Positions 1,138-29,626 of a stretch of 29,626 nucleotides of DNA are shown one piece after another. The translations under genes and the position numbers were made by a program. The DNA comes from an uncultured Lachnospiraceae bacterium (GTDB lineage: Bacteria > Bacillota_A > Clostridia > Lachnospirales > Lachnospiraceae). Where the stretch lies: assembly GCA_947564305.1 (NCBI GenBank), contig CANOBT010000066.1, positions 1-29,626 on the forward strand, read 5' to 3'. The notes under the pieces are model-generated. The model made no database searches, had not been told where the DNA came from, and saw nothing but the letters and a program-made list of their open reading frames with translations. How positions within the stretch are numbered: the stretch's first letter is position 1; the number at the start of each line of letters is the position of its first letter.

Positions 1138-1165
1138 AATACCTCAACGACTGCTAATCTTTTCA

Positions 1166-1978: not shown

Positions 1979-2050
1979 GTTTTCACCAGCCTTTATCGTT
2001 GTCTGTTACATTTTCATTCGCGCAGCAATCACTCTGTGAGTCTCTGTTTG

Positions 2051-4464: not shown

Positions 4465-4493
4465 CTTACCTGCATTCCCTCAAATTCATACGA

Positions 4494-6884: not shown

Positions 6885-6893
6885 TTCACCCCC

Positions 6894-9083: not shown

Positions 9084-9095
9084 ACAAACTCCCTC
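9084..9095 (-). promoter_or_regulatory. Ribosome binding site deciding the start at 9083
   Basis: GAGGGAG (9089-9095, opposite strand) sits five bases before the ATG at 9083 and overlaps the stop codon of the upstream GT4 gene. It fixes the start of the membrane protein and rejects the 20-residue longer frame. Confidence 0.75.
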
Positions 9096-10185: not shown

Positions 10186-10198
10186 CTCTTCCTTTATC

Positions 10199-11242: not shown

Positions 11243-11302
11243 TTTTGAATTGTTTTCCTCTCATATACCTGTTCTCTATACGCTAAGATCCCAAAAATGG
11301 AA

Positions 11303-13009
11303 TTATTTTATCCTCTTAAATCTCAAATTTTCTATACTAAAAACCATATCGCATTCATAGGCAAGGCTCATATGATGTGTTGCCAATACGATTGTTTTAT
11401 TTCCTTTCACCTGCCTGATGGAATCTATCACTGCTTTTTCCGTTTCCAGATCCAGAGCGGCAGTGGCTTCATCCATAACCAAAAGTTCAAAGTCTCTATA
11501 CAACGCTCTTGCCAACGCTATCCTTTGCCGCTGTCCGCCGGAAATTGTCCTGCCGTTTTCACCAATCAAGGTATGTACACCCTCCGGCATCTTCATAACA
11601 TCTTCCCATACCTGTGCGCACTTTAAGCATTCTTCTACTCTTTTCATATCAATCGTTGTTTCATTTGCAAAAAAAGCTACATTATTGCATATTGTCTCAC
11701 CATTTAAATAAACTGTCTGTGGAATATAACTCGTAACGCTCCCAAGATTGGCTAAACATGGCCCTTCCTCATCCGTCTGTGCCACAATATCATAATCATC
11801 ATACAGGATCTGTCCTGACTGCGGCATCAACAGTCCAAGGATCAAATCAAGAAAAGTTGTCTTACCGATACCGGAAACTCCCATGATCGCAACCGAACAA
11901 CCTGCCGGAATCTCAATGGATGCATTTCGAAATATTTGCGCCTGGTCATTATAGGCAAAGGTAAGATTTTGAATCCGAATTCCTTTCTGGAGCGTTATGC
12001 ATTTCTTCCTGCCACCGCCTGCACATTGTTCTTCTTGTTTGATAACCTGATAATTTGTCAGTTCCTCTCGCAATACTCCATATGACTTCTGAGAAAATTT
12101 CACATCGTTTAATTCACTCACAATCTCATATGCAATCGGTACCATTTTCATAAGCATTGTAAGATATACCAACATGGATGACAAAAAAGCTCCAATGTTT
12201 TTCCCCGGTCTCCATAGAAAAAAGGCAAGAATGCCAAACATGGCTGTCATAACCAGATTCTTCATGAACATGCCTATGATATTTTTCTTATATTGAAAAT
12301 TTTGTTGAATCTGTGCATATTTCTTCCCTGCTTCCTTATACCTTTGAAGTACAGCTGCAAAATTATCGGCAATCTTAATTTCCTTAAAATTACCATGCGC
12401 GATCGTTACCTGTGCATTCGCCTTGATTGCATACATGCGGGAGCTTTCCCCATAAGTTTGTATCTGATTGCGATAATTAAAAAATACTACCGTCATCAAC
12501 AGGATAAACGCAACGCAGCTGACCACTCCCACCCATTTCGATGTATAAATCATTACCACAAAATACCCGCACATCGCCAAAATGTCGATCCAAATATTAA
12601 TACATTTGACAACAATACTCAGACAAACCTGTGGATCATTGCGGACCAACGCTAATGCCTGCATGGGATTCTTCCTATTATGCTGCGTCAAGTTCTCTTT
12701 TAATAACAATTCGCACATTTTCTCAGATACATTCTGCGCACCACTATAGATAAACTGATTATGCAGCCAATACTTATACAGATCAAAACCACCTTTCAAC
12801 ATCGATACAATACCCATAAAAAAGGTAAACGCAACAATCGATCTTGACGCCTGTTGTTCGCGCATTACGGTATTGATGATAAGAATAATAATAGAGAAAT
12901 TGAAGAGATCCGTTATCGGACTGATCAAAGTCATGATGATCAGTTTTCTCAAAGTCTTTCGTTCTTCCTTCTCCAAAATTCCGACTAAATAGTTAAACAT
13001 ACCTATCAT
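11303..13009 (-). CDS. ABC-type glycan/lipid exporter, fused membrane and ATPase domains
   Basis: A 568-residue half-transporter. Residues 1-300 form a six-helix exporter membrane domain; 340-568 form the ATPase. The Walker A motif is GVSGIGKTT (377-385), the signature ISGGQRQR (489-496), Walker B LLVMDEATAALD (Asp513, catalytic Glu514), and the H-loop His is at 545. All key residues are intact. The domain order and size are those of PglK/MsbA-like homodimeric exporters, which flip lipid-linked oligosaccharides or export lipids and peptides. In this setting a lipid-linked glycan is the likely cargo. It is the only ABC exporter in the window and coexists with the PelG transporter. GAGG lies 10 bases before the ATG at 13009; a second ATG three codons in is possible. 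Confidence 0.9.
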   Translation of the reverse strand: MIGMFNYLVGILEKEERKTLRKLIIMTLISPITDLFNFSIIILIINTVMREQQASRSIVAFTFFMGIVSMLKGGFDLYKYWLHNQFIYSGAQNVSEKMCELLLKENLTQHNRKNPMQALALVRNDPQVCLSIVVKCINIWIDILAMCGYFVVMIYTSKWVGVVSCVAFILLMTVVFFNYRNQIQTYGESSRMYAIKANAQVTIAHGNFKEIKIADNFAAVLQRYKEAGKKYAQIQQNFQYKKNIIGMFMKNLVMTAMFGILAFFLWRPGKNIGAFLSSMLVYLTMLMKMVPIAYEIVSELNDVKFSQKSYGVLREELTNYQVIKQEEQCAGGGRKKCITLQKGIRIQNLTFAYNDQAQIFRNASIEIPAGCSVAIMGVSGIGKTTFLDLILGLLMPQSGQILYDDYDIVAQTDEEGPCLANLGSVTSYIPQTVYLNGETICNNVAFFANETTIDMKRVEECLKCAQVWEDVMKMPEGVHTLIGENGRTISGGQRQRIALARALYRDFELLVMDEATAALDLETEKAVIDSIRQVKGNKTIVLATHHMSLAYECDMVFSIENLRFKRIK

Positions 13010-13035
13010 ACTGAATATACCTCAATCACTTCACC

Positions 13036-14115
13036 TTAATTACTCATGATTCTTTCCATTAGCCAAAATGGCATGATTCTGTATAAAGATAAAAAAGCGT
13101 GACGAAATCTGGGTAACCTGACCGCTTCTAACAACCTTGGCTGCAGTATATCCTCTTTCTCACATGCAAACCAACAGACTTCATTCTTGATTTCATCCCA
13201 AATCTCTTCTGCCAGATCGGAATGAACAATCACCAGAGAGGTTCCCATGCCATCGTCCAAATCAGACCTGACCTGTTCAACACCCCAAAAATCCCCGATC
13301 GTAAAATCACTGTTCCGGTTTACCGTACAGAATTTACAATGATAACAGGAAGGCCGCAGCATATAATTTCCAAAATACAATTTACAGTAAATATCCTGAT
13401 AAATGGAATCCACATACTCTGTCTTATTGATCCAATAGGATCTCATATGGCCGTTATCTGCGTTTCGCTTATCACGAAAGTAGAAATCCGTCATTTTTCC
13501 TCTGTGTTTATGCTCCAGGTAATTCACATATTTCTTCCAGATTCCAGGGGACGGCACTCCATAACAAACCAGATCAACGACAATGAACTTTTCATACTCT
13601 TTGCTCAAAAAGAGCATCAGCGCCTGCGCCTGACAGGGTGTCCCGCAAAATAATACCCATCTGCCCTTGATCAGGTTCTCTTCTATCCTGCGATAAATTC
13701 CTGTCATATTGCTCTGTACATATTTAGTTCTTTTGATTCCCTCCAATTGCTCACGGTTTACGGCACCGCGATGAACAACGTTCATATTTCCGTCATACCC
13801 TGCCCCGTACACAATCCCCCCTCTTTCGAGCACATACTGTGCCAGGATCGGAAAGATTCCGCCCGACGAACTGGTATCTCTAAACTGTTTTTCCCTTGCC
13901 TGTGCGCCAAAATAAGCGTTCTGACAATTATCTGTTCCATTCTTCTTTAAAGGACATACCGCCCTGCATCTGCCGCATCCGGTACAGGCAAACTTGTCAA
14001 CCTCAGGATAAGCAAATCCTTCCCGATCCTGAACCATTCGAATCGCACCCTCAGGACAAATCTCTGCGCACGCACCACATCCGCAGCACATCTCTTTTAC
14101 TCTATTCTTCTCCAT
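13036..14115 (-). CDS. F420-hydrogenase beta-subunit-like protein with two 4Fe-4S clusters
   Basis: 359 residues from the ATG at 14115 (MEKNRVKEMCCGCGAC), chosen because a GGGGG stretch precedes it and a longer frame would run into the upstream gene. The N-terminus has two ferredoxin motifs, CxxCxxCxxxCP: CCGCGACAEICP and CTGCGRCRAVCP. These are followed by the two domains of the coenzyme F420 hydrogenase/dehydrogenase beta family (SSSGGIFP, GTPCQAQAL, VCYGVPSPGIW). A further Cys cluster, CYHCKFC, precedes FTIGDFWG. Homologues recur in Firmicute and Bacteroidetes capsule loci directly beside pyruvyl-transferase-family genes, as here, but their reaction is unknown. F420 is not expected in this organism, so a flavin-dependent redox modification of a sugar or carrier is the best guess. 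Confidence 0.88.
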   Translation of the reverse strand: MEKNRVKEMCCGCGACAEICPEGAIRMVQDREGFAYPEVDKFACTGCGRCRAVCPLKKNGTDNCQNAYFGAQAREKQFRDTSSSGGIFPILAQYVLERGGIVYGAGYDGNMNVVHRGAVNREQLEGIKRTKYVQSNMTGIYRRIEENLIKGRWVLFCGTPCQAQALMLFLSKEYEKFIVVDLVCYGVPSPGIWKKYVNYLEHKHRGKMTDFYFRDKRNADNGHMRSYWINKTEYVDSIYQDIYCKLYFGNYMLRPSCYHCKFCTVNRNSDFTIGDFWGVEQVRSDLDDGMGTSLVIVHSDLAEEIWDEIKNEVCWFACEKEDILQPRLLEAVRLPRFRHAFLSLYRIMPFWLMERIMSN

Positions 14116-14144
14116 ATAGCAGCCCCCAAAATAACACTTCTGGA

Positions 14145-15251
14145 TTATCTCAAACACCGCATTAAAAATTTCTCCGCTGATGCAGCCTTTTCCTTGATGC
14201 GCTTCTCCACGCTGTCCCATGCAATCTCAGAATCGATCTGAAAACCTTCCTCTTGATATAATCTGCATTCCAGACCACTAAACTCCAAAACATCACTGAT
14301 CCTGGCTCCGACGCTGCTATGCTGAAAAACGACAAACTGTTTCTCAAAAATGATACTGAACGCTGCTCCATGAAAAGAATTCGTGATCACATAATCAGCC
14401 TTATGAAGATATCCTAAGAATTCTGAAGGGCCCGCAGTATCATCCGTTACAATATTGATTCCTGCGATATCTGTACCACCCTTTATCCTGATGATCCCAA
14501 GTCCTTTCTTTTTCGCCAGTTCTCCGGCATAACGAAATAACCTGTCATTTTTTTCTGTTATATATACGAAAATATATCCTGCATTGTCCGGCAGCTTCTC
14601 GATTTTCTTCCAATCATCCTTTCGCAATAAAAATACCGGATCCGGAACTGCGCAGACATCTCCTCTATAAAACTGGCTTATATAAGGAATTACCGCCTTT
14701 TCCCTGACGGAAATATGATCCAGTGATTTTAGCAGATCTGAAAATTCCTCGCTGTACTGCTCTGCGACAGATGCCTTCCCCATACTTGCCGCATAAGCGA
14801 TCACCTTCTTCTTATTCTTATTTTCAAAAGCTCCAAAATACGCTCGCCGCAGTCCCAATGTTATATCCGGATTCCAGATCTGATCGCTGCCTACTATATA
14901 ATACTGATATTGTAATTTTCTAAATTGCCAGAGAAAGAATAGCCTCTTCTTTCCCTCTCCCGTCAGATACTTTTCCCGAAACCGCGTCATATTCGTTCTT
15001 CGCTCGAAAAAAATTGTCCCCAGTTTCAGATTCCTCTTCCACCCGATCCATCCCAGATATAAAGTATTCAGAAAGCACTTCATCGGAATATAAGGAATCC
15101 ACCAATGCCTGCCCGTCATAAATGGCGGCTCATACGGAACAATATCCGCCGCTATCCCCTTCTCCCGCAAATACGTTTTCAATCCGTATGCCTGCAGCAT
15201 CGCTCCAAAATTATCGGCACAATGGAATGTCAAAATCCCCACTTTATACAT
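14145..15251 (-). CDS. Polysaccharide pyruvyl-transferase family protein
   Basis: 368 residues starting MYKVGILTFHCADNFGAMLQ at 15251, preceded by GGGGAA. A TTG start at 15290 is possible but would add 13 residues ahead of the family's normal start. The family marks are the N-terminal 'NFGAMLQAYGL', 'IVGSDQIWNPD', 'SVREKAV' and the late 'ADYVITNSFHGAAFS', where the conserved His is thought to take part in catalysis. CsaB-like members attach a pyruvate ketal from phosphoenolpyruvate to a sugar. Many members in capsule loci next to F420-beta-like genes have not been shown to do this, so the substrate is open. It is cytoplasmic, with no signal peptide. It lies 35 bases after the DUF1919 gene, with a small palindrome in the gap. 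Confidence 0.88.
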   Translation of the reverse strand: MYKVGILTFHCADNFGAMLQAYGLKTYLREKGIAADIVPYEPPFMTGRHWWIPYIPMKCFLNTLYLGWIGWKRNLKLGTIFFERRTNMTRFREKYLTGEGKKRLFFLWQFRKLQYQYYIVGSDQIWNPDITLGLRRAYFGAFENKNKKKVIAYAASMGKASVAEQYSEEFSDLLKSLDHISVREKAVIPYISQFYRGDVCAVPDPVFLLRKDDWKKIEKLPDNAGYIFVYITEKNDRLFRYAGELAKKKGLGIIRIKGGTDIAGINIVTDDTAGPSEFLGYLHKADYVITNSFHGAAFSIIFEKQFVVFQHSSVGARISDVLEFSGLECRLYQEEGFQIDSEIAWDSVEKRIKEKAASAEKFLMRCLR

Positions 15252-15286
15252 TCGCAATTCCCCATTTTCCTGACAGAAATCTGTCC

Positions 15287-15922
15287 TCAATCCCGCCTAT
15301 CATGATTCAGAAAGCTTACATAATCAAACTCATCCAGATATCTTCTTTTTAAAACCTGCTTCTTCAAATTCGTTATGGTCCCTAACTCCGCCTTGTCTTC
15401 AAAGCCTTTCACACAATAAGCCGACGAAAATTCCGGATATTCTACATGGGTAAAGATCACTTTATTTTCATAGGGCAGACGATCAAACTCCCGAATTGTT
15501 TCATAAATGCATCCATCCTTCTCCGATCCGATAAGAAAAAGATTATCCCAGTTGATCCTTCTCTTCCTTTCCTCCCATTTACGCACCCCTTCTTCAAAAC
15601 TGTCATAATGGATAAAGCTTATTCTGATATCACCCAAAATACCAACCGGACATCCGTCAGTCACCCGGGCATCCACCATCTTCTGCTCCATATACCATTC
15701 CAGATTTCCTGCCATTTTAACAAAATCATTCATCTCCATACTCAAATTGACCGTAGGCGTAAGGTACCGCATACCCAGATCATAATACATGAACATTCCG
15801 CTGCAGTTTGAGGCAATGATCGTAAAATCTTCATTTTTTAATCGGCTGCGCCTTTTTTGCTTATATACTTTCCACTCCCAATCTCGCAGGCCATTATATA
15901 TGGCCATAGGTACCCTTAACAT
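15287..15922 (-). CDS. DUF1919 exopolysaccharide-biosynthesis protein
   Basis: 211 residues from the ATG at 15922. The marks of the DUF1919 family are a basic N-terminal helix, then DFTIIASNCSGMFMYYDLGM, TPTVNLSMEMNDFVKM, a GDIRISFIHYDSFEEGVRKW segment and RRINWDNLFLIGSEKD. Proteins of this family occur in capsule and exopolysaccharide loci and may be acyl- or glycosyl-modifying enzymes; no reaction is established to my knowledge. I prefer the start at 15922 because the family normally begins with such a basic segment and AAAGG lies 10 bases upstream. An alternative ATG at 15982, behind GGGGTGGG, would add 20 residues and close the 79-base gap. The gene lies between a large membrane protein and the pyruvyl-transferase-family gene. 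Confidence 0.8.
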   Translation of the reverse strand: MLRVPMAIYNGLRDWEWKVYKQKRRSRLKNEDFTIIASNCSGMFMYYDLGMRYLTPTVNLSMEMNDFVKMAGNLEWYMEQKMVDARVTDGCPVGILGDIRISFIHYDSFEEGVRKWEERKRRINWDNLFLIGSEKDGCIYETIREFDRLPYENKVIFTHVEYPEFSSAYCVKGFEDKAELGTITNLKKQVLKRRYLDEFDYVSFLNHDRRD

Positions 15923-16001: not shown

Positions 16002-18458
16002 CTAATTCCAGACCTCCGCCATTCCCAGCTTATAGGGCGGACTGCCCTGATCCTGTTTGAAAAAATAACACACAAAGGCATCATCCTCATAAAGTACATT
16101 CAATACTGTCGGGTGTTCTTTTGCAAAATGTTTACACCATTCATACAATTTTGACTCTAATGTAATCCGATTCTCAAGCTTCAGATACATCAGCCATGCA
16201 TTCTCGTACTGAGGAAGTTCTACCTCCGCAGTTTCGCCCGATACCTGTCCGGCTATGATCTCCGGACTCTGACTTGCTCCGCTGTCAGGATATTTATGAG
16301 AATATACATTCCAGAAGGGAGTCAGATATTTCTCTTCTCCCATCCACCATGGTCCCTGAAAGAAATGGGACTGCCCATAGAGAAGCGGCTTCTTTTCCAC
16401 ATAAAGAAATACATATTCCGACGGAATACTGTATTCCTCATTGTTGATGTTTTCCACAAAGCCAAGCAATTCTTCATGCCATCCATATTGAATAACGGGA
16501 TATAGTTCATCCGTAGGTGACACGATCGTATAACTATACTTTGAAAAAGTATTGATAATATACTCTGTCACCGTCACCGCCGCATTGTATCTTGACACTT
16601 CATAAAATAGCAATCCTCGGAAATTTCCCGTTGCAACCGCCGCTCCGTAGATCCCTGCGATTGCTGCCAGAGAGCCAATTCTCATAATCAGGTCACTGCT
16701 CAAACGAACAAATCCGGAAAACAGTACATCAACCGGCATCATCACAACCGCCAACATCATCATATGTCCCGGTGCAAAAAACCGCCCTTCCGGCAGCAGA
16801 TCAGGAATCCCGATCATGGGTGCCGCATATACCAATATATAGATGACTGAGGCCAGGATCACGGGCGGATACCATGCACAGACTCCCCGGAAACGGATCA
16901 ATTTCTCTTTTCGTTCAACCAGCCAACAGAAAATCGCTGCGGCCGCAGTCAGGACCATCAGCCAGCCTCCCCGCCCTTTTCCATATAACGCGGCGTAACC
17001 TTTATCAAAGATTTCCACCACACCCCGAAGCAGTGTCGCCGTAATGCTGATCTCATTGCGCTGTAACTCCTGAGATTCTTCCCCTACGTCTGCATCCTCA
17101 ACTACATTTTCTGTGCTCCCTGTCTTTTCACCCTGACTGCGTACTACCCTGCTCTCCTCACCACTCATGGCATTTACCGCCCAGTCTATGGAAGCATTAA
17201 AAGGAATCCCCTGCATCAGCGCCCCCGCCATAGGCAGCAGGGCGATCAGTCCCGCACACAGAATTGAAACCGTCAGGGAAGTAAAATATCTTCTGGAAAA
17301 TATCTTTCTGACCAAAAAAACAGCAAAAGAGGCACAGACCAGGATCACCATCAGCACTGTATGAAAATGGATCGCAGCCGAAGCCGCCAACGATGCCATA
17401 AACAGGAAAAGAGCTTCATCCCGTAAGAATCCTGGTACCTTCTCTTTCTTTTCCACACTATCAGAGCGCTCCCGATTTAAGTACTCCACCAGAAACAACG
17501 CACACAGACATACCGTGTGCAATCCGAATTCCTGCGGCAGCGTAACCTGCAGACGGAACATACTATGGATCAGATCTGCATTGCTCAAGTCCAACGTTAG
17601 AAAAAGCATCAACACAAAATGCGGTGTATATCGCCAATGGAAAATTTTCCCAAGCAAAAGATAAGCTGAAATTAGAAATACCGCTACATGGATTCCCTGC
17701 AGAAACAACAGAATACTATATACCCTGATACCCAGCACACTGTGCATACAGTATATAAAACAATGCATTGCCTGCGGATAGACCCCTTCCGGAAACACTC
17801 TGCCCTGAATCAGTTCATAGATCCATTGATGATGCGCATACAGATCTCCGTATCCATACGAATACACCTGAAAAGCTCCATAATTAAAATAAGCCATTCC
17901 GTACAGGATCACGATTCCCAGCACTCCATATCTCCAAAACAGGAAACTTAGTCTGCGCCCAATATTCCAGATCTGTTCTTTGATCCTCACGCGTACCTTG
18001 GGCCAGTTGCACTCCCTGATCTTTTTCCAATAATCGAAACTTAAGAACCGCGCCGCCTTTTTCACATATCGGTAGCAGACGATAAAGAAAAGGAGTACAA
18101 GAACCAGAATGCGGTATCTTCCTTTCAATGTCCGCACATCAGGAAAATCTGTCTCCACTGCGCTTCTATATTTTCTGTCAAGATATGCCAAAATATTTCT
18201 CACAAGCGCCAGCACAAAAATACCATAGAATGCTACACAGATAAGCCACTGGTTCAACACATGGAACAGCCCCAGCATCAACACTGTCATATTCATGATG
18301 ATGATCGGCACCGTAACGCAAAACCCGAAGCGCCAGGTCTTTGACTTGCCTCGCAAATGCTTATGAAAGACAACAGATGGCCAGAGAAACATCAGGAACA
18401 GATAGCCGCAGGCTACTTTCCCATACTCTACTACCCAATACCCTGTATTCATGTCCAT
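16002..18458 (-). CDS. Large polytopic membrane protein, GT-C or polymerase-like (paralogue B)
   Basis: 818 residues starting at 18458 (MDMNTGYWVVEYGKVACGYL) behind GGGGAG. It is clearly paralogous to the protein at 6894-9083. The N-terminus, the loop motif YGDLYAHHQW (203-212), FPEGVYPQAMHCF (222-234), the 'IHFH' membrane segment and the soluble C-terminal domain (LYVEKKPLLYGQ, QGPWWMG) all match. It differs by an insertion of about 60-70 residues near residues 100-175, which adds a hydrophobic and a basic segment, and by a longer acidic loop near 435-475. About 11-13 membrane helices are visible. The shared Asp-x3-His-His loop is a plausible catalytic site for a lipid-linked sugar transferase or polymerase. 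The family is not recognised by name and no function is proven. Confidence 0.75.
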   Translation of the reverse strand: MDMNTGYWVVEYGKVACGYLFLMFLWPSVVFHKHLRGKSKTWRFGFCVTVPIIIMNMTVLMLGLFHVLNQWLICVAFYGIFVLALVRNILAYLDRKYRSAVETDFPDVRTLKGRYRILVLVLLFFIVCYRYVKKAARFLSFDYWKKIRECNWPKVRVRIKEQIWNIGRRLSFLFWRYGVLGIVILYGMAYFNYGAFQVYSYGYGDLYAHHQWIYELIQGRVFPEGVYPQAMHCFIYCMHSVLGIRVYSILLFLQGIHVAVFLISAYLLLGKIFHWRYTPHFVLMLFLTLDLSNADLIHSMFRLQVTLPQEFGLHTVCLCALFLVEYLNRERSDSVEKKEKVPGFLRDEALFLFMASLAASAAIHFHTVLMVILVCASFAVFLVRKIFSRRYFTSLTVSILCAGLIALLPMAGALMQGIPFNASIDWAVNAMSGEESRVVRSQGEKTGSTENVVEDADVGEESQELQRNEISITATLLRGVVEIFDKGYAALYGKGRGGWLMVLTAAAAIFCWLVERKEKLIRFRGVCAWYPPVILASVIYILVYAAPMIGIPDLLPEGRFFAPGHMMMLAVVMMPVDVLFSGFVRLSSDLIMRIGSLAAIAGIYGAAVATGNFRGLLFYEVSRYNAAVTVTEYIINTFSKYSYTIVSPTDELYPVIQYGWHEELLGFVENINNEEYSIPSEYVFLYVEKKPLLYGQSHFFQGPWWMGEEKYLTPFWNVYSHKYPDSGASQSPEIIAGQVSGETAEVELPQYENAWLMYLKLENRITLESKLYEWCKHFAKEHPTVLNVLYEDDAFVCYFFKQDQGSPPYKLGMAEVWN

Positions 18459-18518
18459 ACTGCTTCTCCCCTTTCCTCTATGTACCCTCAAAAGCTGCAC
18501 CAAAAACAGTTCCTTCTG

Positions 18519-21060: not shown

Positions 21061-22539
21061 TTATCCTGCAAGTCCGCGCTCCTTTTTCTTCTGCCCTTCA
21101 TTGTCCTTCTGATAAACTACACTGGAAGGCATCTTTCCCCTGCCCCGCTTTAACAGCAGCCATTTACAGAACGTATTCCTGTTCAGATTCTTTTCTACCC
21201 AGCGAAGTCTGGCATAGGCGACAGACCAGCCGGCGAACGCGCCAAGCAGAACTCCGAGCCCATACCAGATTTCAGACAGGTGCGTCGCAAAGACACTGCC
21301 CAGGAATGTTACGCCGCAGAAGACAAGCGTCGTCAGTACCGCCCCGTTTAAGTCATTGTAATAATACAGGAAAAGATTGGCCGCATACATCAGGAACAGG
21401 ATAAAATACCCGGCTGCCATACAGGGATAGATCCGCATGACCATCCCGCCAAATCCGTAACGCGGCAGCAGCACGATACAGAGCAGATAAACCACCACCG
21501 AGATAATAAACTGTATCCGCACCAGGCTCATCAACTCATTGGCGATCGAGCGAAACATCCGTCTCTTCGCATTGTCAATGTCGGTCCGCTTCCCACCGAT
21601 CACGGCCTCGGAATAAGCTCTGTACTTATCATGAAAATGCATCTCGATCCTGGCAATAAAGATAACCGTGGCGGAAATATTCGTGAACATGGCAATACAA
21701 GTCGCCATATCATAAGGCTGATTACAGACAAAGCTCTTAACCACGACGATCCGCATATCCGTCGTCCAGAATACAAAATTATGGATATACAATCCCAGTA
21801 TATACAGGAAATTGGCCACGACCAGCTGCCACCATTTCCCGAAATATTTGATCACCGGCTTGTACCGGCTGCTGTTCTTCACAAAATACCGCTTTACGGT
21901 GGCAAACTCCATGGCTGCGATCAGGAAAAATCCGATCATCAGGGAAAACAGTATGGCAATCGTTACTTCCCACCGGAACAGAAATCTTAAAATCACTGAC
22001 AGGATAAAAGTAACCACCATGCCGATCAGAAAATAGAGCGATATCTTCTGATAATCTTTACAGATCGAAAGATACAGCATGGAATAAAATACCAGTACCA
22101 GGGAGATATACCCGCTAAATCCCGTAAACACATAGAATACGCTTACGCCGCCGACGAAGTGCTCCCACAGGCAAAACGGGATCCCCAGAAGGCAGCTGAG
22201 TACGATGTTCATCATCAGTCCCAGATAATAGCAGGGAAGGATATCCTGATAGCGCTCCTCGAAGATCGCATCCTGCATATACTTGGACAGCACCGCATTA
22301 AAAGGGGCGGCTGTCAGCAGGGCAAAGATGAACGTATATAGCACGGTACAGAAGAACACTTCTCTGTCCAGATAAGCCGTCTTATTCAGCCCCAGCACAC
22401 GTCCCATCAAGATGATATTCGCTATCACAAGCACCATCGGCGCCACCGTGGCGATTGTACTGTAGGTAAATCCCACCAGACTCGCAAAGACTGACTTTTT
22501 CTCAAATATATGATTTAATTTAACGCCAATACCCGCCAT
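21061..22539 (-). CDS. pelG: PelG, membrane transporter of the Pel synthase
   Basis: 492 residues with about 12 membrane helices. The opening MAGIGVKLNHIFEKKSVFAS and the following helix 'STIATVAPMVLVIANIILMG' are characteristic of PelG, an MOP-superfamily flippase-like protein (456 residues in Pseudomonas). In Pseudomonas, PelG forms an inner-membrane complex with PelD, PelE and PelF and is thought to carry the growing polymer across the membrane. The C-terminal 35 residues are short, charged and rich in Lys/Gly. GGAGAGG (22546-22552) lies within the last codons of pelF, and the pelF stop and pelG start are separated by one base (TAATATG), so synthase and transporter should be made in step. 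Directly downstream is the DUF2304-GT2 gene rather than a further pel gene. Confidence 0.92.
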   Translation of the reverse strand: MAGIGVKLNHIFEKKSVFASLVGFTYSTIATVAPMVLVIANIILMGRVLGLNKTAYLDREVFFCTVLYTFIFALLTAAPFNAVLSKYMQDAIFEERYQDILPCYYLGLMMNIVLSCLLGIPFCLWEHFVGGVSVFYVFTGFSGYISLVLVFYSMLYLSICKDYQKISLYFLIGMVVTFILSVILRFLFRWEVTIAILFSLMIGFFLIAAMEFATVKRYFVKNSSRYKPVIKYFGKWWQLVVANFLYILGLYIHNFVFWTTDMRIVVVKSFVCNQPYDMATCIAMFTNISATVIFIARIEMHFHDKYRAYSEAVIGGKRTDIDNAKRRMFRSIANELMSLVRIQFIISVVVYLLCIVLLPRYGFGGMVMRIYPCMAAGYFILFLMYAANLFLYYYNDLNGAVLTTLVFCGVTFLGSVFATHLSEIWYGLGVLLGAFAGWSVAYARLRWVEKNLNRNTFCKWLLLKRGRGKMPSSVVYQKDNEGQKKKERGLAG

Positions 22540-22540
22540 A

Positions 22541-24025
22541 TTATACCTCTCCTACATAATCCTCCGCCTGTTTCTCCACAGGTTCCGTAACATTTTCCGC
22601 CCAGGGCAGCTGCAGGCTTGCCGCAAAATCCTTGTAGACTTCACCGTAGGCGTGCAGCATATTCTCCATGCGGTAGAGCGAAGACACTCTGCGATAGCCG
22701 TTCTCTCCCATCTGCATGCGCAGCTGCTTATCCTGCGCCAGTGTGAGGATTGCCTGTGTGATCTCTCCGATATTCATGATATGGGTAATAATCCCTGCTT
22801 CCCCAAATACATCATCGCCGCCATTTCCCAGGATCAGTCCTCTGCAGTCGCCCACGTCTGTGGCGATCACCGGCTTATGTGCCGCAAAGCTTTCCAGAAT
22901 TGTCAACGGCTGCCCTTCACTGATACTGGTCAGGATCATCATGTCCATTTTCCCATAATATTCCAGCACATCGATCCTGCCGGTAAAGATGATGTCCGGA
23001 ATCCCCATAATCCCGACCATATCAAAACATTCCTGTGCGTAGCCTTCATCATTGTCCCATGGCCCCATGATCCAAAGCTTCAGTCGTGGTTCTTTCTCCT
23101 TGGCAAATCCGAACGCCTGGATCAGCGTCTTGACATCTTTGATCGGCGTTACGCGAAAGACTGCACCGATATAGATTTCTTCCGTCTCTGCCTCGGTCTT
23201 ACCCAGAAGATTCTGGAATTTCCCGACTTGAATCCCGTTAGCGATCACCATAGTCTTTTCCACCGGACATTCAAGCTCAGCCTGCAGCTCTCTGGCACGC
23301 CCATACAGACTGGTAACCAGCTCGGCCCTGTCATAGGCCATCTTGGACATCTTATGGAATTGTTCGATCCAGATATTCTTATAAATCCCTTTGACCCATT
23401 TGGAACGAATCAGCTCCTCTTCCCGCTCTCTCGTATAGATCCCGTGTTCGGACACCAACAGGCGGCCTCCATGCATGTATTTTCCCATACATCCCAGCAC
23501 ACCTGCATACCCGGTGCACAGGCAGTGATAGACATCGGCCTTGGGGACTTTCATCTGCAGCGTTCGAAAGAGCGGCAGATAGATCGAGCGCATCGTCCAC
23601 AGGAAATCCGTAAACACAAACTGGCTGTAATTCAGCATATAGAAATCCGACACTGCGTTAAAGAAATCCTCCCCCATCAGAAGATCGTTGAGGGAGCGCT
23701 TTTTCTTCTGGAAAAAGTCAATCAATACCTCCCACTCTACCTGCTTTCCCAACAAGAGGCTGCGCAGTGCCTGATATTCCTTCTTGTTCATCCGGCTTCC
23801 GCGCCTTCTTCTACTCCAGTCCAGATCATCCAGGTAGAGCTCCTGTACTTCCACCACATTCTTCGGCAATTCGTATACGAATTTTCCCCGCAGCTCCCTG
23901 TTCGCCACGATCGCCAGAATAATAAACTCCTGATCGGGAAACGAACGAATCAGGCCATGCGCCCAGCTGGACATACCGCCTACCGTATAGGGATAGCATC
24001 CTTCCGCCACTATACAAATTCTCAT
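22541..24025 (-). CDS. pelF: PelF, Pel polymer glycosyltransferase (GT4)
   Basis: 494 residues, close to Pseudomonas PelF (507). It opens MRICIVAEGCYPYTVGGMSS, the hallmark of PelF, and has the family-specific mid region SEHGIYTREREEEL (192-205), the FRVTPIKDVKTLI donor-binding strand with basic residues at 291-299, and the E-x7-E pair Glu370/Glu378 in SEGQPLTILESF. It is a soluble cytoplasmic enzyme expected to polymerise an N-acetylhexosamine from a UDP-sugar while docked on PelG/PelD/PelE. Pel in Pseudomonas is a GalNAc/GalN-rich polymer; here the sugar is an inference. The start has no close Shine-Dalgarno: GAGAAAGG is 13 bases away, with a three-codon ATG-TAG unit in between that ends exactly at the start codon. 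Confidence 0.94.
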   Translation of the reverse strand: MRICIVAEGCYPYTVGGMSSWAHGLIRSFPDQEFIILAIVANRELRGKFVYELPKNVVEVQELYLDDLDWSRRRRGSRMNKKEYQALRSLLLGKQVEWEVLIDFFQKKKRSLNDLLMGEDFFNAVSDFYMLNYSQFVFTDFLWTMRSIYLPLFRTLQMKVPKADVYHCLCTGYAGVLGCMGKYMHGGRLLVSEHGIYTREREEELIRSKWVKGIYKNIWIEQFHKMSKMAYDRAELVTSLYGRARELQAELECPVEKTMVIANGIQVGKFQNLLGKTEAETEEIYIGAVFRVTPIKDVKTLIQAFGFAKEKEPRLKLWIMGPWDNDEGYAQECFDMVGIMGIPDIIFTGRIDVLEYYGKMDMMILTSISEGQPLTILESFAAHKPVIATDVGDCRGLILGNGGDDVFGEAGIITHIMNIGEITQAILTLAQDKQLRMQMGENGYRRVSSLYRMENMLHAYGEVYKDFAASLQLPWAENVTEPVEKQAEDYVGEV

Positions 24026-24067: not shown

Positions 24068-25888
24068 CTAATAAATGGATCTTAAGGTGATCACTGCCTT
24101 TTCCTGCATAACCTCTATCAGATAGACATCCTCTTCCAGTTCTTTCCAGTCTCCGCCTTCCACACTCTCTATCGTTTCCTGGTCGGTCCTTAACACAAAC
24201 CATACCGGCGCTCCCACGTCCTCTATCTCAAGATGGATCGCGTTAAACTCTCTTGTCTCTCTATAATCCAAAGCGAGAAAACTGCGAATCCTCTCATCAC
24301 ATTCTGACACCGTTGTATTGGCGAATCCCTGCTCACCGATTCCATAATACTGTATATTCCGCCGATAATTATTGGATGCCTCCACCCACTCGACGCCATC
24401 CTCCTGTGCGGATAAAATATGGCTTAAGTCCGTCATAATACTGGTATAGCCTAATGCTGTTCTGAGACTTCTGATCCGAAGATCATGTCGCGCTGCATCC
24501 TCAAATCCATCCAATACAGCGCTCTGCCTGGTAACATACTCTGACAGATATCCGATCACTTCCCTGTTCTCGTTGCAATTCTCGACAACCGTCCTCACTG
24601 AGGAAAGCAGATCCTCCTGTAGCGCATTTTCCACTTCTTCATCGGTAAGTCCGTCCGCATAGAAGGAAGTAAACCGATAGTCAGGCAGCACTTCCTGCAT
24701 AAATTCATGATCCAACGCAATTTTTTTCTCAAGGGGTGTATCCGACAGACAGGCGCCGGACAATCCGGTCTCCGCATCCTGCTCGTTCAATAATTTCATA
24801 TACCGCTCAAACTGTTTCCCATCCGGACGCTTATCATCTTCATAATCAAGCTGCGGTGCGAGCATACAGGAGATCGCAGTGCCGCTCTCCCGCCTGATGG
24901 CAACCACTTCCGGCCAGATAACATTCTGGTAGAATCCCGCCATCGACTGACTGTAACGCTCTAACATCACATCCGTATTCTCATCTGCCAGTCCCGGGTA
25001 ATTGACATAGATCAGATTCTGCGCGTTCACCACCGGATAGATGTCGTATGGTTTCCTTTCCGCTGACATGGCTGTCAGGATCCCTAATCCAGCAATATCC
25101 TCCATATACTTTCCGTTAACGGCAAAGACCACAGCCGTCTCATGGTTCGTTTTCCAGATGATCGCAGGCATTTCTTCCTCTTCCACAGGCTCATTGCCGA
25201 GTGACTTTTTCCTTGGCTCGCCATTCATATAAATCTCGCTCTCGGAAGACACCTCATACCACGGAAACGTAAACGAAACATCTTCCTCCAAGCTTTCTTC
25301 CGTGTAAACCGCTTCGCCTCCCAGCAAAAATCCTTCCTGCAGGTGAACACTCTCTACCGTCATCTCCTCTGCCCGGATCGCCCGAATGCCCAGAAGCGTC
25401 TGCAGGCGCTGATTTTCTTTCACAATGGATACATCCGGCAGGTCACAGAAGATAAGGTCGATCCCCGACTGTACATATCCTTCCAGAAGATCGCAGTTTT
25501 CTTCCTTATTCCAGTCAACTCCCGCAGCATCCAGAACGATCAGGGCAGACTGCGCCTCCTGATCCGTCTTCTTCGCCGCTTCATAATCCGCCAATGACAG
25601 ATAATCCGCCATATTTTTCTTGGCATAGGCTGCCCACAGGGATACCATCTCTCTGACAGGTGTGTCATTTTCTCCGATAAAGAAAACCGTCTCCCGCAGT
25701 TCATTCTCGAAACTGCCATTATTCACACTGTAAGCATCACTTCTGTTCGGAATCTGTGACGTATCCACAATATAAGCGTTTTCTTCATAATGGTTCCAGC
25801 TTTCCAGAGCAACATTGGAAAACTGAAACAGGAAAAATACGATGAACATTACGATCGTGATCGTAACATAATTACGGCGTGATATCAT
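24068..25888 (-). CDS. Membrane-anchored DUF2194 protein in the PelA-deacetylase position
   Basis: 606 residues. A signal anchor at 8-27 after MISRRNY leaves the bulk outside the cell. Residues about 60-300 look like an alpha/beta domain (TVFFIGEND, SALIVLDAAGVDW, DLIFCDLPD). Residues about 335-500 recall a polysaccharide-deacetylase-like barrel with a possible first motif APQLDYEDDKRPDG (344-357), and the last 100 residues are beta-rich. I recognise it as DUF2194. It sits between pelE and pelF, where Bacillus-type pel operons carry the PelA deacetylase domain, so a role in processing or binding nascent polymer is likely. However, no H-x3-H zinc pair is visible; the nearest His residues are isolated (393, 468). 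It may be inactive, or its metal site may differ. The start ATG has a weak site and overlaps a short leader frame. Confidence 0.75.
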   Translation of the reverse strand: MISRRNYVTITIVMFIVFFLFQFSNVALESWNHYEENAYIVDTSQIPNRSDAYSVNNGSFENELRETVFFIGENDTPVREMVSLWAAYAKKNMADYLSLADYEAAKKTDQEAQSALIVLDAAGVDWNKEENCDLLEGYVQSGIDLIFCDLPDVSIVKENQRLQTLLGIRAIRAEEMTVESVHLQEGFLLGGEAVYTEESLEEDVSFTFPWYEVSSESEIYMNGEPRKKSLGNEPVEEEEMPAIIWKTNHETAVVFAVNGKYMEDIAGLGILTAMSAERKPYDIYPVVNAQNLIYVNYPGLADENTDVMLERYSQSMAGFYQNVIWPEVVAIRRESGTAISCMLAPQLDYEDDKRPDGKQFERYMKLLNEQDAETGLSGACLSDTPLEKKIALDHEFMQEVLPDYRFTSFYADGLTDEEVENALQEDLLSSVRTVVENCNENREVIGYLSEYVTRQSAVLDGFEDAARHDLRIRSLRTALGYTSIMTDLSHILSAQEDGVEWVEASNNYRRNIQYYGIGEQGFANTTVSECDERIRSFLALDYRETREFNAIHLEIEDVGAPVWFVLRTDQETIESVEGGDWKELEEDVYLIEVMQEKAVITLRSIY

Positions 25889-25971: not shown

Positions 25972-26931
25972 TCAGCTGAAAATGCGGATCAGCTCCAGTG
26001 TTTCATTGTCGATCACCACATCTGATTTCTTCAGGGCGTCCAGCGTCCGGAAAAACGCTTCTCTGTTTCTGACGATAAAATACAACTTCAGTTTACAGGT
26101 AAAAGACGAGAGCCGGTCCGGATACTGCTTTGCCAGACGCTCGCACCATTTCTCGCAGTTCTCATAATCGCGGATATCCAGAAGCCTCAGACAGACACTC
26201 TCATACTGCTTATCTGTCATACCGGAAGGATTCTTCGTATAGAAAGACTCTGCCGCCTCCGTCATCATCCGCACGAATTTGTTCTGCTCCAGTTCGGCAA
26301 AAACCTGCTGCTTCAATATTTCATCGGTATATTTTAGCATCATATCTTCGTATTCCGTCTGATCGCTTTCTTCCTCGCGCATCCCCAGATACAGCTTCTG
26401 CGCTTCCAGACGGAACTCATTCAGTTCATGACTCAGAATGGATGCCGCATAATGCGATGACTCCGAATCATTCGTCTCCAGAGCCATTGCAATGGCCGAC
26501 AGAGAGTTGCGTATCTCGCCTTTTAACACATTCAGCATGGCCGCACGCAGACTCTTCCGATCATTGACGGCAATGGCCTCCTCCAGAGGGATCACGTTCA
26601 TCTCCCTCTCTTCATCCGCTTTCAGCTGTGTCCTGACGCGTTCCTTGCTGAAAATTACATCATCCAGTTCCACCTGAAACCGGAAAATGGTCAGATAGAA
26701 CAGATGCACGACGAAGAAAAACAGCGGTCCGACAACCGGGCACAGCAGCATGACGATAAACCGCAGCAGATAGGTTCTTCTGTTGTCATGCAGCCGCTCG
26801 GCCTGCCCTTCCCTCTCTCTGTTGCGGACAGGAACCAGGATGAGTATACCGATCAGCAGATACAGAACTGCTACGATCACATTAATGATAACAATGATGC
26901 AAAAGACAAACTCATCCCTTGTCAAGGTCAT
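25972..26931 (-). CDS. pelE: PelE-like protein, two membrane helices and helical-repeat tail
   Basis: 319 residues from the ATG at 26931, which overlaps the stop of the PelD gene (ATGA) and follows GAGGGGG at 26939-26945. Two membrane helices (about 8-35 and 56-82) are separated by a basic loop. A long cytoplasmic helical region follows, with TPR-like pairs (ADEEREMNVIPLEEAIAV, SLRAAMLNVLKGEIRNSLSA, YENCEKWCERLAKQYPDRLS). Length, topology, helical repeats and position directly after PelD and before pelF agree with PelE (329 residues in Pseudomonas), which scaffolds the PelD-PelE-PelF-PelG complex. Sequence identity to any PelE cannot be measured here, so the assignment rests on architecture and synteny. 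The acidic, Glu-rich helical part probably contacts the cytoplasmic domains of PelD and PelF. Confidence 0.82.
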   Translation of the reverse strand: MTLTRDEFVFCIIVIINVIVAVLYLLIGILILVPVRNREREGQAERLHDNRRTYLLRFIVMLLCPVVGPLFFFVVHLFYLTIFRFQVELDDVIFSKERVRTQLKADEEREMNVIPLEEAIAVNDRKSLRAAMLNVLKGEIRNSLSAIAMALETNDSESSHYAASILSHELNEFRLEAQKLYLGMREEESDQTEYEDMMLKYTDEILKQQVFAELEQNKFVRMMTEAAESFYTKNPSGMTDKQYESVCLRLLDIRDYENCEKWCERLAKQYPDRLSSFTCKLKLYFIVRNREAFFRTLDALKKSDVVIDNETLELIRIFS

Positions 26932-29102
26932 AACTGATCCCCCTCTCTGAGACGGCACTCATAACCGGAATTTCTGAAGCGGTTCATTACGCCCTCCGCG
27001 TTTTTCTCATCCGTGTTGGAAAGAAGTATGTAGAATTTGCCGTCATCCAGAATCCCCATATAATCTGTCTGACGCATATTTTTACCAAGTGTTTCCGACG
27101 CCTGCGCAATATCTGCCGTCATGATCTCAAGCAGCGCACATTCCGTAAGCCCGTTCTTCTTTGCTCCAAAAAACGCCCTGACCAGCTGCCCGAATGCCTC
27201 TGTCACCATAACCCTGCTCTGCCCCACATAGCGTTCACTGGTAAGGGCATCCAGATAACGGTTCGCATGAACCACCGCGTTCTGGATCAGGGAACCGACG
27301 ATCGTCAGCCGGTTTGCCTCAGGAAGCGTCATCCGCTGCCACGGGATTCCCCAGATCATCAGGATCAGTTCCATCTGGTCCTCCGTATATACGGCGCTCG
27401 CCATAAGCGGAAGTTTCTCATCCATCTTCTTATTGATAAAGACCCTATGCTCACTCAGATCCCGGTACAGATCTTCCATATCCGTATATTTGATGGAATT
27501 ACCCAGTTTCTTCGCTTCCGGTGATGTAAAGGAAAACAGTCGCGCGTAATCGCCGTTTGCTACCGTGTAGACCGCAACATCCTTGCTGTCCATCAATTCT
27601 CCTAACACCTTCGCCGCGTAGAAAAGCACCTCCTCCGGCGCATATGCTTCCAGACTGGAAGTGATCTCATAAATCTTCCCCAGGCTGTCCCTCTGATTGA
27701 CCAGCTGCGTCTCAAAGCTCTGTTTCATTCGCACGTTACTGTCATTGATATCTGCTATATCATCCACCTTTCTGCTCAGGTAACGCACTTCCTCCTCGTT
27801 CTCGTCCTTCACGAACTGGAGCTGGTCACGCATATATCCCACGACCATTCCGATGATGAACAGCTGTGCCATCCATACGTATATATTATAGTCCAACAGC
27901 ACTTCGAATCCCGTTCTTCCATACATCTGCTGCAGGAAATATCCCACCACTGCGAGCAAGGAAGAGAAGATTGCCTGCTGCTGCCCGTACACGATTGCAA
28001 ATAACAATACATACAGCAGGAAGAAATCCAGTCTGTTAAAATATTCGCTGCCTGCCGCCTTACTGTTCAGAATAAAGAACGGTATAAAACAGATCACATT
28101 CTCCACAAACGGAAAGACTCTCCGAAATGCAGTCCTGATGCCGTGCCAGATCCTTCCGGCCCTGCTTCCTCCCGTATCCTCCGCGCTGATAAAGGCATCT
28201 GCATGTCGTTTCATGTATTTGACAACCTGCTCCACGCCTTCTTCATACTGCACAAATATTCGCTGGTCAAATTCCTCCTGATAAGGCCGTCCATCCAGAA
28301 CCAGACGATATTTATCGCCTACCGAATTGTTGGCCAGCCTGATGCCGCCGCCCATCGCTTTGATGATCAGTTCTGCCAGAGCGATCTCATTGATCTCCTC
28401 CATGGAAGAGATCTGATAGACAGACAACGCCGGACGTTCTTCCATGATCACCTTATAAGCCAGTTCCACCGCATCATTCAGATAAAGCATGGAAAAGGAC
28501 CTTCTGTCACTGGCTGAAACCCTGCCGGTCTTAAGTGCCTCCAGGCACATCTGATAGCACGGATTGCTCTCCTCCTGTCCCCTGCGCGGGATACCGTACA
28601 GATGATCAAACCGCAGGATGAGTATATCAAGTCCCTGTGTCTTCCGATAATTCTCACAGATCTCTTCTCCCTGCGCGATGGCCATAGCCTTAAACCCTCT
28701 GGGTGATACTGTCTCCAGAGTGGAAATATCATTGTGATAGGAACCCCCAAAAACTTCATGAGATGAAAAATAGACAAAGCGTCCTTTGCCCGCCATAGAA
28801 TAGGTGGACAGAAGATTCATCAGCGCTGCTGTATAGCGCACGGATTCCTGTCTCTCCCTGTGCCAGTCAAAGTTCGTGTCATAGGCGCCCATAAACAGAA
28901 CCATGTCCGGTTTCACACTCTCGAAGATATCCTTCACGCTCTCATCCTCATAAGAGTAATCATACCGCTCAAATACATGCTTATAGGACATCTGCCTGTC
29001 TCTGCGGCCCGTCAGCAGGAAGATCCGGTGTTTGCCCTTATTCAGTTTATCTATTACGGCATCCGTCATTCTGCTGCCGCCGCCGATCAATAATATGTTC
29101 AT
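26928..29102 (-). CDS. pelD: SDR-PelD fusion: c-di-GMP receptor of the Pel synthase
   Basis: 724 residues in four parts. Residues 1-300 are an extended SDR/epimerase-like domain (NILLIGGGSRMTDAV, YFSSHEVFGG, LRFDHLYGIPRRG), but the YxxxK catalytic pair is not found where expected (PRGFKAMAIAQGEE, 134-147). Residues 333-424 carry four membrane helices, as in Pseudomonas PelD. A helix at 430-470 is followed by a GAF-like domain (about 475-615). Residues 616-724 are a degenerate GGDEF: the RxxD inhibitory site is kept as Arg677-Gln-Thr-Asp680, five residues before DDGKF (686-690), which stands in place of GGDEF. This is the PelD pattern: it binds c-di-GMP without making it. It should activate the PelE/F/G complex. 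GGGAGG at 29106-29111 fixes the start. Confidence 0.88.
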   Translation of the reverse strand: MNILLIGGGSRMTDAVIDKLNKGKHRIFLLTGRRDRQMSYKHVFERYDYSYEDESVKDIFESVKPDMVLFMGAYDTNFDWHRERQESVRYTAALMNLLSTYSMAGKGRFVYFSSHEVFGGSYHNDISTLETVSPRGFKAMAIAQGEEICENYRKTQGLDILILRFDHLYGIPRRGQEESNPCYQMCLEALKTGRVSASDRRSFSMLYLNDAVELAYKVIMEERPALSVYQISSMEEINEIALAELIIKAMGGGIRLANNSVGDKYRLVLDGRPYQEEFDQRIFVQYEEGVEQVVKYMKRHADAFISAEDTGGSRAGRIWHGIRTAFRRVFPFVENVICFIPFFILNSKAAGSEYFNRLDFFLLYVLLFAIVYGQQQAIFSSLLAVVGYFLQQMYGRTGFEVLLDYNIYVWMAQLFIIGMVVGYMRDQLQFVKDENEEEVRYLSRKVDDIADINDSNVRMKQSFETQLVNQRDSLGKIYEITSSLEAYAPEEVLFYAAKVLGELMDSKDVAVYTVANGDYARLFSFTSPEAKKLGNSIKYTDMEDLYRDLSEHRVFINKKMDEKLPLMASAVYTEDQMELILMIWGIPWQRMTLPEANRLTIVGSLIQNAVVHANRYLDALTSERYVGQSRVMVTEAFGQLVRAFFGAKKNGLTECALLEIMTADIAQASETLGKNMRQTDYMGILDDGKFYILLSNTDEKNAEGVMNRFRNSGYECRLREGDQL

Positions 29103-29115
29103 TTTCCTCCCAACC
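29103..29115 (-). promoter_or_regulatory. Strong ribosome binding site of the SDR-PelD gene
   Basis: GGGAGG (29106-29111, opposite strand) lies three to four bases from the ATG at 29102, with a second AGGAGGG just upstream. The 54-base gap up to the previous stop holds no other obvious signal. Confidence 0.7.
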
Positions 29116-29156
29116 CTCCTTATAATATGGTAACTCGCCAGTTTATGACGTTTGTA

Positions 29157-29564
29157 TCATTTGTGCCGCATCGTCTCTACCATGGTGATCATTTCTGCAT
29201 AGGCTTCATCATCTTCCATATCAATCCACGGCTGCGCTCCCAACAAAATATAAGGCGCACGCACCGCCAGCTGTATAACGATACTGCCTGCCGTCTGCTC
29301 CGCCAGATCTGTCAGGATCCTCCATCTGCGGTGTCTCCTGTCATAGAGGATCAGATCCCCCTCCATGCTCTCGCAGATATCCGTGATCTCCGGTTCATGA
29401 TAGATCCCCGATCCCTGGTCTTTTACACTGATACAGGCAGATATGATCTCCTTATATGGAATCTTATGCCTGCCGGCCGCAGGATCCATGATCTGAATGC
29501 TGCTCCTGCCGATCTGAATCCGTTCTGGTCTCAGCATCATATCCGGCTTCTCTTCCATTTTCAT
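29157..29564 (-). CDS. Small soluble protein, possibly PH-like fold, unknown function
   Basis: 135 residues from the ATG at 29564, chosen because AAGGAG (29571-29576) lies six bases upstream. The frame stays open to the window edge and has a TTG at 29609, but that start has no comparable site. The chain is mostly alternating beta strands (DMMLRPERIQIGRSSIQIMD, KIPYKEIISACISVKD, GDLILYDRRHRRWRILTD) followed by a C-terminal helix (DDEAYAEMITMVETMRHK), an order that recalls bacterial PH-like or GRAM-like domains. There is no signal peptide or membrane segment. I do not recognise a family. It is the gene immediately before the PelD fusion and in the same direction, so it may be a regulatory or scaffold part of the Pel complex. 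This is inference from position only. Confidence 0.7.
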   Translation of the reverse strand: MKMEEKPDMMLRPERIQIGRSSIQIMDPAAGRHKIPYKEIISACISVKDQGSGIYHEPEITDICESMEGDLILYDRRHRRWRILTDLAEQTAGSIVIQLAVRAPYILLGAQPWIDMEDDEAYAEMITMVETMRHK

Positions 29565-29565
29565 C

Positions 29566-29626
29566 TCACGCTCCTTCGAAGTTGGCGTAAACTCTCCGGT
29601 GTCCACCAAAGTACAGTTTGACGGAC
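29566..29626 (-). CDS. Possible C-terminal end of an upstream gene (partial)
   Basis: A minus-strand frame enters at the right edge, reads SVKLYFGGHRRVYANFEGA and stops with TGA at 29566-29568, just before the ATG at 29564. The alternating hydrophobic/charged beta-like character and the stop lying between the ribosome binding site and the next start are typical for a neighbouring gene end. A competing frame ends at 29561 with an ATGA overlap, so the assignment is weak. Twenty codons are too few to name a product. Confidence 0.35.
   Translation of the reverse strand, partial: SVKLYFGGHRRVYANFEGA

Follow-up and report, generated by a model that had tools for sequence, protein, structure and literature searches.

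What does an epimerase-like domain do when it has lost its catalytic residues and is still retained on a signal receptor? The question is raised by pelD, a gene at one end of a 29,626-nucleotide stretch of DNA from an uncultured Lachnospiraceae bacterium (contig CANOBT010000066.1, assembly GCA_947564305.1; the whole stretch is called the window below). Within a Gram-positive Pel synthase (PelDEFG), its product is predicted to be the subunit that receives cyclic di-GMP (c-di-GMP), and it begins with a degenerate short-chain dehydrogenase/reductase (SDR) domain. Our best reading is that this domain is a pseudoenzyme serving as a non-catalytic docking or allosteric module, possibly with a rebuilt pocket. 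We put the probability of the whole, the c-di-GMP receptor and its docking module taken jointly, at roughly 60%.

Domain layout of PelD and its c-di-GMP site

The gene runs from an ATG at 29102, preceded by the ribosome-binding sequence AAGGAGG, to a stop at 26928, and is the first of a pelDEA(DA)FG operon. Translation, Pfam and structure matches divide the protein as follows.

26928..29102, minus strand: pelD, 724 amino acids, in the order SDR, transmembrane (TM), GAF, degenerate GGDEF
28185..29102, minus strand: N-terminal extended-SDR (epimerase-like) domain, residues 1-306
27807..28163, minus strand: membrane helices, residues about 314-432, with the conserved blocks LDFxLLYVLLF and AQLFIxGM
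27645..27806, minus strand: linker helix, residues 433-486, low confidence
27228..27644, minus strand: GAF domain, residues about 487-625
26931..27227, minus strand: degenerate GGDEF domain, residues about 626-724
27063..27074, minus strand: inhibitory site (I-site) RxxD, R677-D680 (R677-Q-T-D680)
27033..27047, minus strand: DDGKF, residues 686-690, where the GGDEF signature would stand
26979..26981, minus strand: R708, candidate third c-di-GMP-binding residue

The structure model of the N-terminal part has the extended SDR fold and superimposes on 6wjb_A over 313 aligned columns, with a TM-score of 0.80 (target length) and 18% identity; we take this protein (PDB 6wj9/6wjb) to be PelX. The membrane helices that precede the GAF domain are those seen in the structure model. 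A helix is predicted for the linker, with a predicted local distance difference test score (pLDDT) below 50 in residues 434-475. The top eight structure matches of the C-terminal model are all PelD chains (4etz/4euv/4dn0), which confirms a PelD-fold GAF and GGDEF-like region; the VIA-align list for the same model is dominated by GAF domains and says little on the GGDEF part. A profile of the latter matches the diguanylate cyclase 3ign with an expect value (E) of 8.3e-4 and 6zxm with E=0.039, and Pfam PF00990 with only E=0.076.

Relatives were collected by genome scans and protein searches. A survey of homologues, which the first-pass annotation had proposed, found the same fusion repeatedly: a scan of genomes with two patterns in the PelD membrane part gave 132 relatives, and all 80 that were kept carry the SDR domain (match from residues 1-5 onward). 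Of the 7993 proteins scored in the protein search, 1682 reached E 1e-3 or better, a number that may include plain SDR proteins; the best 120 of the 1682 matches have 60-94% identity. The closest locus, L001, comes from a metagenome-assembled genome (MAG) of an uncultured Lachnospiraceae bacterium and is 94% identical. Further SDR-PelDs came to light among 398 genomes sampled from the phylum of Schaedlerella and among 398 from the class of G115, probably a Paenibacillus by its 94% match to protein P0122. Of 398 genomes, 44 gave a match, and none of these could be recognised as the source of a streptococcal or actinobacterial PelD; plasmid records gave one weak match, from Streptomyces, over PelD residues 96-310 at 25% identity.

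The alignment holds 206 sequences, of which 136 were kept at less than 90% identity, namely 129 core sequences, including that of the window, and seven far ones. The core sequences are compared below with 118 SDR-PelDs, mostly from Paenibacillus, Brevibacillus and Cohnella where named, which we call class II; the number is our own assignment. This set was not thinned, and comprises the 117 of 120 listed proteins that passed the length limit and one further locus (L086).

The GG(D/E)EF signature of diguanylate cyclases is replaced by DDGKF in the window PelD, in columns aligned to GGEEF of 3ign. The I-site stands five residues before it, and the region profile aligns the two to RQSD...GGEEF of the same structure. 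Positions 686, 687 and 689 vary in the core, 688 being mostly G and 690 mostly L, whereas R677 and D680 are present in 129/129 core and, at each position, in 117/118 class-II sequences. R708 is found in 129/129 and 116/118, respectively. All six GGDEF-domain sites that are at least 95% conserved in class II are kept in the core. Judged by the spacing given in the available text of Whitfield 2020 (PMC7112168), R708 would be the equivalent of Bacillus cereus R395. The same source reports that the purified domain of B. cereus PelD binds c-di-GMP with a dissociation constant of 103 nM, that R363A, D366A or R395A abolishes its biofilm, and that a degenerate GGDEF domain binding c-di-GMP at the I-site is the state of both P. 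aeruginosa and B. cereus PelD. The RxxD and further Arg without a GGDEF active site in the window PelD correspond to this state.

The first-pass annotation had named this protein as a PelD with an N-terminally fused SDR domain, both enzyme centres apparently dead and the RxxD site preserved. Each of these statements holds: the operon families, the PelD structures and the I-site agree on the identity, the model confirms the fused fold, and GGDEF and the SDR Tyr/Lys pair have given way to DDGKF and to K138/I142.

The SDR domain in the core clade and in class II

The altered parts of the SDR domain are the following.

29064..29084, minus strand: degenerate NAD loop GGGSRMT, residues 7-13 (canonical GxxGxxG)
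28677..28691, minus strand: former YxxxK pair, K138 and I142
28863..28889, minus strand: clade motif GAYDTNFDW, residues 72-80, after beta-4
28545..28559, minus strand: clade-specific CxxxC pair, C182 and C186

Of the S-Y-K catalytic set of GalE and PelX, the window SDR keeps S113, whereas the Tyr has become K138 and the Lys I142. The Tyr138/Lys142 pair is found in 0/129 core and 118/118 class-II sequences, S113 being invariant in the core as well. Position 138 is K or R in 124/129 core sequences and W, Q or E in the other five, and position 142 is I, V or L in 126/129. The cofactor site is also degraded, with GGGSRMT and T31 where GalE and PelX have GxxGxxG and an acidic residue. Gly13 is absent throughout the core (0/129, vs 116/116 of the class-II sequences with a residue there), and position 31, after beta-2, is Thr in 124/129 core sequences and D31 in 117/118 of class II. 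The loss is not total, as Gly7 is kept in 117/129 and Gly10 in 38/129. Two class-II arginines, R203 and R260, are missing from 129/129 core sequences; by analogy with GalE, they presumably contact the nucleotide-sugar phosphates. With S113, Y138, K142, R203 and D204 present in 118/118, the class-II domain is likely a working epimerase, and it is the best conserved domain of class-II PelD (mean 0.709 vs 0.497-0.632 elsewhere). The altered cofactor and catalytic residues place the window protein in the PelD class with degenerate SDR and GGDEF domains.

The SDR domain was earlier suggested to sense NAD(H) or a nucleotide sugar, which it would bind without turnover, so that PelD would respond to precursor supply or redox state in addition to c-di-GMP. 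The SDR fold is retained, with S113, S114, N96, Y169, P172 and, mostly, Gly7. However, the NAD-loop Gly13, the acidic residue and both arginines, all kept by class II, are lost in the core, so this proposal is disfavoured for the window clade and we consider it quite unlikely. It may still hold for three Bacilli genomes (G490, G478 and G465), whose degenerate domains keep GxxGxxG and D31 and have lost the pair, and which lie within the intact Bacilli on the tree. The Bacilli PelDs L142, L144 and L147, with an intact NAD loop and no pair, appear to be a separate, less advanced case of the same loss.

That the domain might still be an enzyme, with new chemistry in which K138 acts for Tyr, is suggested by the basic residue at position 138 and the invariant S113. 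The degraded NAD loop, the replacement of the pair's Lys by I, V or L and the five sequences with W, Q or E at position 138 speak against it, and we regard such an activity as very unlikely.

A decaying relic of the fusion, with no function, would also have lost its catalytic residues. Among the 86 SDR sites that are at least 95% conserved in class II, the core keeps 19, fixes eight to another residue and varies at 59. The ratio of nonsynonymous to synonymous substitution rates (dN/dS, Nei-Gojobori, 70 relative pairs, 60-64 of which were used per domain) nevertheless has a median of 0.085 in the SDR domain, compared with 0.073 in TM, 0.047 in GAF and 0.124 in GGDEF, and is 0.041 between the SDR domains of the window and its nearest locus. 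Moreover, the SDR domain is present in all 80 kept loci though the search patterns lay in the membrane part. Judged by these ratios the domain is under purifying selection and shows no decay; the relic reading was rejected on dN/dS and is extremely improbable. Within the core, the 13 canonical SDR-motif positions have a mean conservation of 0.845, vs 0.647 for the rest of the domain, a value as high being reached in 20 of 20,000 permutations.

On a tree of PelD built without the SDR columns, parsimony requires the pair to change state three times, starred branches making two of these changes unavoidable, and the SDR domain is kept throughout. We read these changes as losses, by a method that cannot tell gain from loss. 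On an unrooted tree of SDR domains a single branch (96*) parts 15 free-standing from 32 fused domains, which fits one fusion event.

The core also has a set of conserved residues of its own. In the motif after beta-4, G72, D75 and F/Y78 are found in 129/129, W80 in 126/129 and N77 in 119/129 core sequences; class II has A72, A73 and V76 there and no fixed residue at 74, 75, 77, 78 and 80. C182 occurs together with C186 in 120/129 core vs 0/118 class-II sequences. Also conserved in the core are Y111 and S204 (129/129 each), D166 (126/129), F203 (115/129) and E116 (110/129), and C149 is common to 129/129 core and 115/118 class-II sequences. The old active site may have been remodelled so as to bind some other metabolite, or a metal, in a specific pocket, making PelD a receptor with two inputs. 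GAYDTNFxW, E116, K/R138, D166, C182/C186, F203 and S204 are 85-100% conserved in the core and differ from class II, D75 excepted (41/118 in class II), and, judged by SDR motifs, most of these positions presumably line the cofactor or substrate in SDRs. The same pattern would be expected of a conserved surface that binds a protein partner. We hold such a pocket possible, if doubtful. The acidic and aromatic motif, the basic residue at the catalytic Tyr position and the CxxxC pair are its proposed elements. Slightly more tentative still is the proposal that, in the Lachnospiraceae/Oscillospiraceae clade, PelD gates Pel synthesis through this pocket on c-di-GMP and a second signal from a metabolite or metal.

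The pel operon and the role of the SDR domain

Downstream of pelD the operon continues with four genes, for which relatives were counted in the 68 core pel loci with at least 9 kb of downstream sequence.

25972..26931, minus strand: pelE, named by its place in the operon (Pfam gives a sub-threshold PIN_8 match alone); relative in 68/68 loci
24068..25888, minus strand: pelA(DA), DUF2194 (PF09960, E=4.7e-22), probable name from family and place; 67/68 loci
22541..24025, minus strand: pelF, DUF3492 and glycosyltransferase (PF11997, E=4.4e-74); 68/68 loci
21061..22539, minus strand: pelG (PF16933, E=1.6e-145); 68/68 loci

The pelE ATG overlaps the pelD stop by four bases (ATGA). An 833-amino-acid protein at 16002-18503, membrane-rich by eye and matching no Pfam family up to E 5, has a relative (E 1e-10 or better) in 62/68 pel loci, placed between pelE and pelA in at least 21; from this recurrence it is an unnamed companion of this pel type. 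Directly downstream, positions 70-15290 hold a second polysaccharide-type cluster with several glycosyltransferases, an ABC transporter, a pyruvyl transferase, an F420-hydrogenase-like protein, a deacetylase and an acetyltransferase. Its genes for the pyruvyl transferase, the F420-type protein and a DUF1919 protein each have relatives in 4/68 pel loci. Just upstream of pelD lies an open reading frame of 164 amino acids (29127-29621, plus strand) that matches no Pfam family at E 5 or better, and an Rfam search of 28800-29626 found no match up to E 0.5.

Some genomes carry more than one pelD. Schaedlerella arabinosiphila has two SDR-PelD genes about 34 kb apart (L009 10001-12193 and L120 10232-12532), with a GalE-like frame (G005:C1:250706-251323) between them but beyond the flanks examined around either, and two are also present in each of the MAG pairs L010/L020 and L023/L029. 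The PelD of genome G230 (L092) is split over two frames, one of 536 amino acids and a later one; the gene copy may be damaged or the sequence misassembled. One core-type PelD (L080) lies on a contig binned as Candidatus Gastranaerophilales, probably through a binning error.

The enzymes of c-di-GMP and GalE were surveyed in the genomes of ten relatives. In all ten, GGDEF matches exceed the family cut-off, and each genome has 3-9 matches with E 1e-3 or better, so c-di-GMP is plausibly present. Each also has one galE over the cut-off, and the PelD SDR domain is hence not the cell's sole possible source of epimerase.

GalE-type SDR enzymes are usually dimers, and the dead SDR domain might be a pseudo-subunit that pairs with a working GalE-type SDR and brings a source of UDP-GalNAc to the synthase. 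The galE genes of the ten genomes would allow this, and in two loci (L015 and L119) a pelD whose SDR is dead is immediately preceded by an SDR gene that has both YxxxK and GxxGxxG. However, L015 is the one core locus of the 68 with a free-standing SDR within the searched flanks, none is found in the other 67 or at L115-L118 and L151-L156, and G586 has a free SDR beside an intact SDR-PelD. We judge such pairing unlikely. A tie between pair loss and a neighbouring free epimerase, tried on the same loci, is unsupported. In L119 the intact-looking epimerase gene (3423-4469) stops 27 bases before the ATG of pelD, whose own SDR has lost the catalytic Lys and kept the NAD loop.

The docking or allosteric reading may be put in evolutionary terms. 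An ancestral PelD would have gained a working UDP-hexose 4-epimerase once, its original task probably being to provide UDP-GalNAc close to PelF. In several lineages, that of the window among them, supply would have moved to a GalE encoded elsewhere, and the SDR domain would have been kept for a non-catalytic job. The likeliest such job is that of a cytosolic module that positions PelD in PelDEFG and couples c-di-GMP binding to PelF. By analogy with P. aeruginosa and B. cereus, c-di-GMP at the I-site would activate PelF via PelD. In the Lachnospiraceae/Oscillospiraceae clade the old pocket appears refitted, and may bind a ligand other than NAD or the usual nucleotide sugars.

Several points weigh against this role. 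We infer it from the retention of the domain without catalysis. In the available text of Whitfield 2020 (PMC7112168), Streptococcus thermophilus JIM8232 makes a pel-dependent biofilm with a PelD that has no epimerase region; the SDR domain need thus not be essential. In the core, its mean conservation (0.656) is lower than that of TM (0.741), the linker (0.739) and GAF (0.772), and exceeds only that of GGDEF (0.621). The pairs behind the dN/dS medians depend on one another, and those that had reached saturation were left out. The first list of pocket positions (39) and the list of 13 motif positions were both chosen with the alignment in view, and the pocket positions were derived from SDR motifs rather than from coordinates. 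The trees are quick and unrooted, with long branches and no bootstrap, and the set of free SDRs is biased. Finally, several of the 68 loci have little sequence upstream.

Comparison with known systems

PelD proteins with a degenerate SDR domain are published, and the fusion observed here is correct but not new. According to Whitfield 2020 (PMC7112168), the epimerase domain of PelD looks inactive in clostridia, streptococci and actinobacteria, whereas that of Brevibacillus looks intact. A 2025 paper on S. intermedius (PMC12345266) cites four PelD groups defined by GGDEF, SDR and degenerate SDR domains, and calls the function of the degenerate domain unknown in its available part. Among the matches listed in our literature searches, we recognised no paper that gives the degenerate SDR a function, and the refitted pocket is the sole part that was not found in print.

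At the same alignment columns, 129 sequences lack the pair and 118 have it; this contrast, together with changes of state in which the domain is kept, makes the role of the SDR domain testable. It singles out D75, W80, K138, D166 and C182/C186, and ligands that are expected not to bind. A Pel-type matrix, if the operon is active, would bear on the aggregation of these bacteria, which are probably gut commensals.

The P. protegens UDP-GlcNAc C4-epimerase (6wj9/6wjb) resembles the window SDR in fold; unlike it, the enzyme is free-standing and catalytic, at 18% identity. The SDR-PelDs of Brevibacillus, Paenibacillus and Cohnella share the architecture and I-site of the window protein, but their GxxGxxG, D31, YxxxK and R203 are intact in 116-118 of 118. 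The PelDs of B. cereus and P. aeruginosa have the same TM, GAF and degenerate GGDEF domains with RxxD and a further Arg, and reported c-di-GMP binding (PMC7112168), but are not fused to an SDR. S. intermedius PelD (class IV) has a degenerate N-terminal SDR, a likeness by description rather than by comparison of the SDR sequences, and differs in having no GGDEF domain, according to the available text of PMC12345266. Closest is the clostridial PelD with a degenerate epimerase domain described in PMC7112168 and counted among the four PelD classes of PMC12345266, whose architecture is identical, with the same SDR-TM-GAF-GGDEF order, a pel operon and altered SDR residues. To what is available of that description, the present analysis adds the clade-wide pattern of K/R138, GAYDTNFxW and C182/C186.

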